From positions 1,941,001 to 2,005,000 of the forward strand of contig NZ_CP018097.1 in NCBI RefSeq assembly GCF_001886695.1: a stretch of 64,000 nucleotides of DNA, given 5' to 3'. Of the stretch, positions 51,415-51,955 are shown piece by piece. This DNA is from Aurantiacibacter gangjinensis (lineage in GTDB: Bacteria; Pseudomonadota; Alphaproteobacteria; Sphingomonadales; Sphingomonadaceae). The translations under genes and the position numbers were made by a program. A model generated the notes under the pieces. That model saw nothing but the letters and a program-made list of their open reading frames with translations, did not search any database and had not been told where the DNA came from. Position 1 is the first letter of the stretch. Every line of letters begins with the position of its first letter.

Positions 51415-51570
51415 ATGGAATACGAATTGGTCGAAGGTCGCGATATCCACCAGCCCGTTGCCGGCCGCGAAAACGGTTATGGCGGCTTTCCGAGCTTGGG
51501 GCAGGGCGCACAGGCAGACGAACCGAACACCCGTCGCCGCGCAATGCACATTCCCGAGCAGGCATACTGA
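51415..51570 (+). CDS. Small protein of 51 residues, function unknown
   Basis: An ATG at 51415 with AGAGGAG nine bases upstream opens a 51-codon frame starting MEYELVEGRDIHQPV and ending MHIPEQAY. It is hydrophilic with no membrane segment. The good ribosome site and position 85 bases after lpd, before a tRNA gene, support it as a gene. I do not recognise the family. The same frame is open upstream into lpd, but that part reads poorly. Confidence 0.5.
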   Translation: MEYELVEGRDIHQPVAGRENGYGGFPSLGQGAQADEPNTRRRAMHIPEQAY

Positions 51571-51628: not shown

Positions 51629-51718
51629 GGACAGGTGGCAGAGCGGTTGAATGCACTGGTCTTGAAAACCAGCAAGGGTGCAAGCCCTTCGTGGGTTCGA
51701 ATCCCACCCTGTCCGCCA
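51629..51718 (+). tRNA. tRNA-Ser(UGA)
   Basis: A 90-base gene including CCA. The acceptor stem GGACAGG pairs with CCTGTCC; the anticodon stem CTGGT / ACCAG encloses loop CTTGAAA with anticodon TGA at 51663-51665, reading UCA codons. The long variable arm (AAGGGTGCAAGCCCTT) marks a class II tRNA, and the T arm is GTGGG-TTCGAAT-CCCAC. The 3' end is encoded as GCCA. Partial copies of its 3' end follow downstream. Confidence 0.97.
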
Positions 51719-51955
51719 GCAGCGTGCGCCACAGGCGTGCGATGATGGCGGATTGGAATGCGGAGAGAACTCAAGGTTCGGAGCCGCAGCGAAGCGGAGG
51801 CGCGCGAAGCGCAATCCCACCCTGTCCGCCAGCAGACACCTCTTCAGGTAGCGTCTGCTGGCGGATCCCGGTGCTGAAAGAATCCCTGGGTTCGGACTCG
51901 GAGACGCAACGCTCCGGAAAGAGCCGTAGCAAAGCGAAGGCCAATCCCACCCTGT
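51719..51955 (+). repeat. Two degenerate tandem units with split tRNA-Ser 3' ends
   Basis: After the tRNA, its 3' sequence AATCCCACCCTGT recurs at 51813 and 51943, the first extending through the CCA and beyond. In both, the upstream T-arm sequence GGTTCG is present (51775-51780; 51889-51894) but separated from AATCCC by 32 and 48 bases. The inserts share the block GAGCCG(C/T)AGC(G/A)AAGCG(G/A)AGGC. Each unit also repeats TGGCGGAT about 22 bases before GGTTCG. Unit lengths are about 113 and 130 bases. No protein is encoded here. Confidence 0.8.
51827..51864. other. Strong hairpin with an inverted tRNA end
   Basis: CCGCCAGCAGAC (51827-51838) pairs perfectly with GTCTGCTGGCGG (51853-51864), and the loop contains a further ACCT-CTTC-AGGT stem. 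The left arm is the tRNA-Ser 3' end plus its downstream bases, so the right arm is an inverted copy of it. It could end tRNA transcription or be a remnant of the repeat's folding structure. Confidence 0.75.

Follow-up and report, generated by a model that had tools for sequence, protein, structure and literature searches.

The tRNA-Ser(TGA) gene of Aurantiacibacter gangjinensis is followed by two further copies of its own 3' end, each preceded by an insert at the place of the T loop, and the locus raises the question of what these units are and how they came to stand behind the tRNA. The window, i.e. the whole stretch of DNA analysed, is 64,000 nucleotides long; the features identified at the locus, with the basis of each assignment, are listed below by window position.

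51629-51718, plus strand: intact tRNA-Ser(TGA) (ARAGORN; Rfam RF00005 spans 51629-51715)
51700-51718, plus strand: tRNA-Ser(TGA) positions 58-76, "B" (ARAGORN, Rfam)
51719-51745, plus strand: unit 1, hairpin h1, abutting the tRNA CCA (sequence, DNA fold)
51746-51766, plus strand: unit 1, region C, weak complement of the tRNA 3' end (sequence, complementarity tests)
51767-51780, plus strand: unit 1, hairpin 0, GAAC...GTTCG (sequence, fold)
51781-51812, plus strand: unit 1, insert "i", 32 nt, two hairpins (covariance model R1, family helices)
51813-51831, plus strand: unit 1, "B2", second copy of tRNA positions 58-76, 19/19 (sequence)
51832-51858, plus strand: unit 2, h1-like hairpin GCAGAC...GTCTGC, 3' of CCA (sequence, fold)
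51859-51894, plus strand: unit 2, TGGCGGA and the stretch to GGTTCG (sequence)
51895-51942, plus strand: unit 2, insert "i", 48 nt, diverged (weak R1 match)
51943-51955, plus strand: unit 2, cut-short copy of tRNA positions 58-70, 13 nt (sequence)

The whole units run from 51719 to 51831 and from 51832 to 51955, and the second keeps the order of the parts of the first. The tRNA-Ser 3' sequence AATCCCACCCTGT, which the original prediction had reported twice more downstream, is indeed found at 51813, within a 19-nt match (51813-51831) reading AATCCCACCCTGTCCGCCA, and at 51943, with 13 nt. The inserts of 32 and 48 nt were correctly placed after the two GGTTCG motifs (51775 and 51889), and TGGCGGAT, described as a further repeat, occurs once per unit, at 51746 and 51859. 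TGGCGGA (51746-51752), which starts region C next to h1, is the exact complement of the tRNA end TCCGCCA. Hairpin 0 of unit 1 reads GAACTCAAGGTTC, and many other units have, by eye, a hairpin like it. In single-stranded DNA folding, unit 1 surpasses its shuffles (z -2.36), which is not the case for unit 2 (z -0.48). A 51-aa ORF (MEYELVEGRD...) is located just 5' of the tRNA, at window 51415-51570 (+); in the relatives L003, L007, L013 and L014 a similar small ORF was noticed by eye 3' of the tRNA, in the opposite direction.

The genome containing the window measures 2.72 Mb, in 2 contigs, and has 40 tRNAs. A 332-nt query matched the same kind of unit behind other tRNAs, and a covariance model, R1, was built from six real units. 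Sixteen R1 matches with E<=10 were obtained in this genome. The six at E<=0.01 are all family members, located behind tRNA-Arg(TCT), -Ser(TGA), -Tyr, -Arg(CCT) and -Ser(GCT), and within a broken tRNA-Arg(CCT) copy, at its T loop; the ten weaker ones comprise two family members (Arg-ACG and the second window unit) and eight sequences whose loci contain no tRNA (L058, L060, L062-L067). The insert of window unit 1 matches R1 with an E of 5.3e-12 in this genome, its sequence being itself in the training set, and that of unit 2 gives a weak match of 18.4 bits (E 1.14 in this genome, 0.042 across 33 loci). A unit stands behind 6 of the 40 tRNAs, five identified by script and the one at Ser-GCT, because its copy is short, by eye only; a tRNA-His match flagged by the script (12/19) holds no unit. 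The gapped pattern GGTTCG-N10-39-AATCCCACCC, whose gap range leaves out the 48-nt insert of unit 2, matches the whole genome once and the backwards control not at all. Together with the units behind five other tRNAs, this places the window pattern beyond chance. The broken tRNA-Arg(CCT) copy (L056, contig C1, about 2014101-2014200, minus strand), with i in its T loop, has a 22-nt insert in the anticodon loop as well, and an intact tRNA-Arg(CCT) copy lies beside it.

R1 matches at E<=0.01 were found in 20 of 40 genomes of the genus, the sole match in G015 being a palindrome away from tRNAs (L082), and the model misses some real units, e.g. in G011 and G020. A pattern scan of the GTDB set returned 43 matches. 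An intact tRNA precedes 32 of them at a distance of 9-89 nt; 41 of the 43 come from alphaproteobacterial groups, mostly Sphingomonadales, and two are assigned only to Pseudomonadota or a proteobacterium. The other 11, inspected by eye, are located behind tRNA 3' fragments (L130, L132, L139, L142, L146, L165), inside the T loop of tRNA-Arg(CCT) copies that are full but broken (L133, L143) or at contig edges (L137, L152, L161). L133 is a broken copy of the L056 kind, and L143 has the T-loop insert alone; the fragments at L130, L132, L139, L142 and L165 belong to tRNA-Arg and resemble, by eye, the attachment sites of integrated elements. Unit L135 of the GTDB set is identical to L036 of the genus set, and L156 to L089.

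When up to 2 mismatches were allowed, 29 of the 246 genomes sampled across the order matched, some of them by chance, within genes, as was recognised by eye for L207, L212 and L215 at least; all 29 belong to one family, and no match was obtained in the seven other families drawn. An exact pattern without TTCG hit 23 places in 15 of 298 genomes of the family and none in the backwards control: 16 places are behind intact tRNAs, 2 behind tRNA fragments and 5 elsewhere. The unit thus recurs behind at least 12 isoacceptors (Arg CCT, CCG, TCT and ACG; Ser TGA, GCT, GGA and CGA; Tyr; Lys TTT; Gln TTG; Leu CAA) across Sphingomonadales and a few other alphaproteobacteria. The proposal of a palindromic repeat family that takes the 3' end of a tRNA as its module is therefore upheld, and the check suggested with it, for occurrence beyond tRNA-Ser in the genome and its relatives, turned out positive; as a rule, the module is the 3' end of the unit's own tRNA, L127 and L131 being exceptions by eye, since their copies are poor.

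How closely the copy follows the adjacent tRNA was evaluated on 56 distinct units, parsed by script from the collected loci with a threshold that dropped decayed copies, such as Ser-GCT in the A. gangjinensis genome, Leu-CAA L157 (17/19), and L127 and L131 (poor). Identity is 19/19 in 35 units, 18/19 in 14 and 13-16 in the remaining 7. Compared with 22 distinct tRNA ends, the own one is strictly the best for 54 units and tied for 2. The left limit is sharp: base 58 agrees in 49 of the 56 units and base 57 in none, so that the T-loop break common to the units is real. The "split T arm" of the original prediction holds up as far as the position of the break is concerned; the bases to the left of GTTCG, by contrast, are mostly unlike the tRNA T stem, all four bases next to it matching in only 3 of 40 units. 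Because of this poor match, the tRNA-specific part is set at 58-76, and GTTCG, which is present in nearly every tRNA, is assigned in most units to the constant element. The break is more plausibly the place where a 58-76 copy begins, directly against a constant element, than a cut through the T arm.

The right end is less sharp, since agreement past CCA is somewhat above chance: at each of the ten positions 3' of CCA, 11-20 of 40 non-Tyr units agree (mean 39%), and in 9 Tyr units the agreement runs several bases further. The copy was also followed between similar units at tRNA-Arg(TCT) in G018 (L035) and G006 (L036). Their ends differ, ACTCCTGCTGG and AGTCCTGCCGG, and each equals that of its own tRNA, including base 59 of the loop, which favours copying or conversion over pairing as the source of the likeness.

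Filled and empty sites are observed in close relatives. At tRNA-Arg(CCT), a unit is present in G000, G002, G025 and G011; in G015, G063 and G012 the site is cleanly empty, with a terminator-like hairpin and the same gene right after CCA. Partial forms were recognised by eye: G013 (L277) retains of its unit just the last part of i plus a copy that has diverged, L284 has the left part of a unit with no copy, and L285 little beyond h1. Tandem multiplication is seen in the window, in L071 and in L081, with two units each, and in L230 (G232, C1 about 363560-364010), where four nearly perfect units follow tRNA-Tyr at a spacing of 115 bp.

Units group by tRNA type. The nearest neighbour of a unit belongs to the same isoacceptor in 40 of 56 cases, against a mean of 8.8 and a maximum of 19 after shuffling. 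Five units of the A. gangjinensis genome have mutual scores of 0.07-0.26, and their best matches elsewhere score 0.37-0.72. When the genus set is compared with the GTDB set, pairs of one type have the higher mean score at Arg-ACG, -CCG, -CCT and Tyr; Arg-TCT and Ser-TGA do not show this difference. Judged from these sequence comparisons, the units at one tRNA type look old rather than recently spread.

The hairpins of i are kept by compensatory changes. The R1-fitted alignment used here comprises 40 matches, 39 of them distinct, includes a few weak spurious rows, and leans by its fit towards the model; within it, 89.5% of stem cells are paired, against 79.7% in shuffled alignments, and 37 cells are changed on both sides, against 15.7. 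Double-sided changes involve 5 of 9 pairs, a figure equalled by 20 of 500 shuffles, and pairing falls to 14-56% when the partner strand is slid. Hairpin 1 is made of 3 bp, a 3x3 GNA/GNA internal loop and then 2 or more bp, mostly closed by a GNA loop: in 22 of 37 rows (three weak rows dropped, and R1 itself built on GNA units) the apex consists of three bases, GAA in 17, GTA in 2, GCA in 2 and ACA in 1. An excerpt of PMC4686876 describes GNA loops with G-C stems, above all GCGAAGC, as very stable and nuclease resistant in DNA form. In the stems of i, 10 G-T pairs were counted versus 3 A-C, too few to decide from them between the RNA and the DNA level. The 5' arm of hairpin 1 is usually GANTC, N and its partner varying (e.g. 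L052, L054, L088), and reads GAGCC in window unit 1; GANTC is the CcrM methylation site of alphaproteobacteria.

The insert is also found away from tRNAs. It lies within IS3-type transposase genes at one common site in three genomes (L217, L218, L232), where its 36 nt leave the local reading frame open. A relative on plasmid pYT40 that lacks i reads CTCGACTT/CGTCTCC (the slash marks the junction), compared with CTCGAGTT-i-CGTCTCC in L217, and a second plasmid copy is likewise i-less. The junction of the i-less relatives, TT/CG, is CG/AA on the opposite strand. In a second IS3 type (L238), i stands at a like site relative to an i-less plasmid copy and creates a stop codon. Flanking bases are altered in both types, so that these junctions are not perfectly clean. 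Six intergenic palindromes with i, examined by eye, show CG/AA (L082, L249, L254), CG/AC (L094, L246) or GG/AG (L259). The loop of a hairpin was considered as the target and rejected: by eye, the i-less IS3 gene contains no such hairpin, and a short stem exists only with the insert; only CG/AA was therefore retained. These non-tRNA sites are the best clue to how i might enter, and the T-loop sequence TTCG/AA would be consistent with the hint they give. A plain preference for CG/AA would not be the full story, since i is far commoner at tRNAs or their fragments (18 of the 23 places found with the pattern without TTCG) than at other CG/AA sites.

The reading that we prefer, and to which we assign about an even chance, is that of a REP-like, hairpin-rich DNA repeat held between two copies of the last 19 bases of the tRNA (58-76). 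The two-hairpin part i would enter at CG/AA, which in tRNAs is the T loop TTCG/AA. An event would survive only if it preserved or re-created the 58-76 end in intact form, together with a terminator-like hairpin behind the tRNA, and the intact upstream tRNA would keep the unit from harm. Later in this order of events, the 58-76 direct repeats would permit multiplication and scarless loss, and gene conversion could maintain the likeness of the copy to its tRNA. No host benefit would be needed. Several observations fit this reading poorly: the concentration of i at tRNAs beyond a CG/AA preference; three of six non-tRNA palindromes with a junction other than CG/AA; changed flanking bases in both IS3 types; the apparent age of units at one tRNA type; poor copies (7 of 56, as well as L127 and L131); and the recurrence of region C and h1 at different tRNAs, which the insertion of a bare hairpin leaves unexplained. 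Long retention and a copy that tracks its tRNA could, moreover, mean a function.

Such a function is at the centre of a second explanation, which we consider doubtful: the unit would be a structured RNA trailer or terminator, in which pairing of region C, with either the tRNA end or its copy, steers 3' end formation or shields CCA. The compensated hairpins and the grouping by tRNA type agree with it, as do, by eye, the extension of h1 into bases pairing with CCA and a second terminator-like hairpin that follows in several units. Complementarity of region C to the own tRNA exceeds that to others (mean 5.89 vs 5.39; own better in 36 of 55 units, Wilcoxon p 0.009, on rows related to each other), but taken singly no more than 4 of 56 units are significant at p<=0.05. 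An antisense region C was accordingly discarded as the chief cause of the copy, the effect being weak per unit and modest when pooled. RNA folding speaks against a trailer: the mean z of 55 units is -1.0, and an apparent strand preference (45 of 55, raw) was dismissed as it disappears once shuffles serve as the control, the own strand then being favoured in 32 of 55. In several species the T-tract of h1 lies, by eye, 5' of most of the unit, much of which would thus be past the terminator. Furthermore, 34 of the 40 tRNAs of the A. gangjinensis genome and about half of the genus genomes have no detected unit, and the tracking of loop base 59 by the Arg-TCT copies is not required by pairing.

A third explanation, in our view unlikely and close to the scars of repeated integrations considered in the original prediction, takes the unit for a micro-islet, or a scar, left by site-specific integration: at the T loop, a tyrosine recombinase would have inserted a tiny non-autonomous element, leaving attL (the tRNA) and attR (the copy) as 19-bp repeats. 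Integrative elements at tRNAs have an intact tRNA gene upstream, a copy of its 3' end downstream, a break in the T loop and precise empty sites, and common integration sites occur among the tRNAs for Arg, Ser, Tyr, Leu, Lys and Gln. The units resemble them in the direct repeats from T loop to CCA on both sides, in the empty sites of relatives and in the tRNAs used, which include such common sites; several units also stand, by eye, behind attR-like tRNA-Arg 3' fragments. Unlike those elements, the units measure about 100 bp (single units about 80-155 bp) and share one hairpin family over many tRNAs. The 43 GTDB matches, three of them located at contig edges, include no larger element bearing a unit, and no integrase was seen in the matches read. 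In the plasmid and phage collections, 0 of 212 and 0 of 672 records, respectively, cover 80% of a tRNA-plus-unit query, the best 10 of each matching the tRNA part, and two viral-contig matches are without tRNA and look like chance; a phage, plasmid or viral origin was rejected on these grounds. Each element would, in addition, have to bear the right tRNA end for its target.

Quite unlikely, too, is a distinct non-autonomous mobile element for tRNA genes, one that would rebuild the 58-76 end of the tRNA and add a terminator-like hairpin at each entry. The rebuilt end and the hairpin would allow it to settle harmlessly in essential tRNA genes, and the sharp limits of the 58-76 part would allow a copy taken from the mature tRNA, for instance by reverse transcription halting at base 58, a route that was weighed but not adopted.

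That one tRNA 3' end was duplicated locally and received unrelated insertions later, the case named in the original prediction as its refutation if nothing recurred elsewhere, is highly improbable and was ruled out by the recurrence of one insert family with one breakpoint and an own-tRNA copy at 12 or more isoacceptors in many genera, even if tandem copies do exist and recombination between 19-bp repeats is expected.

The preferred DNA repeat was compared with known systems. E. coli tyrT repeats (rtT RNA) are tandem units of about 178 bp that contain the last 19 or so bases of the tRNA, at one tRNA, in enterobacteria. The units described here are likewise tandem and bear the last ~19 bases of the tRNA; they differ in occurring at many tRNAs, in their size and in the conserved hairpins of i, and homology to the rtT RNA family is not supported, as Rfam at gathering score returned only tRNA in the window and 8 loci. 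The tyrT repeats appear as a table entry in the portion of PMC2658671 consulted. With REP/RAYT (GTAG) systems the units share hairpin repeats. A Y1 transposase, which those systems require, gave 0 matches in the A. gangjinensis genome, in a search whose control matched 5 of 14; across the genus it occurs in 3 of 40 genomes, 2 of these belonging to the 20 that have R1 matches. RAYT transposition was for this reason rejected as the general mobiliser, and the absence here and rarity in the genus also weigh against the DNA repeat.

Rickettsia palindromic elements are short palindromic sequences inserted in coding genes, in many cases with the frame preserved. By description, i is like them in its in-frame, 36-nt occurrence within IS3 genes, and the unit is set apart from them by its copy of a tRNA 3' end. 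These elements are named in PMC3733652, which, in the sections seen, presents CGTC-tagged REPs (2013) as short palindromes, commonest in alphaproteobacteria, some in coding genes, with stems of 8-9 bp, loops of 4-5 nt and a CGTC head, and not associated with transposase genes. As far as those sections describe them, the CGTC-tagged REPs are similar to the units in the short palindromes, the alphaproteobacterial hosts and the occurrence of some in coding genes; hairpin 1 departs from their stem and loop sizes, and the unit, unlike them, is tied to tRNA 3' ends. No earlier description of the unit was found among the best matches in open PubMed Central text (titles and abstract openings).

Under the reading as a DNA repeat or any other, the units unite REP-like hairpins and duplicated tRNA ends, which are usually met separately. 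The identity of the copy to its own tRNA across genera documents, in nature, how a tRNA gene and its flank evolve in concert, and the filled and empty sites of close relatives make gain, loss and the effect on the tRNA directly testable. If mobile, the element would repair the essential gene that it enters, a new twist on tRNA targeting; if functional, it would be an unrecognised part of tRNA transcription units.

Composite palindromic repeats of a different kind were noticed by eye near gene ends at L062-L067 and behind tRNA-Trp, -Thr(GGT) and -Phe of the A. gangjinensis genome; some of them also have GCGAAGC-type cores.
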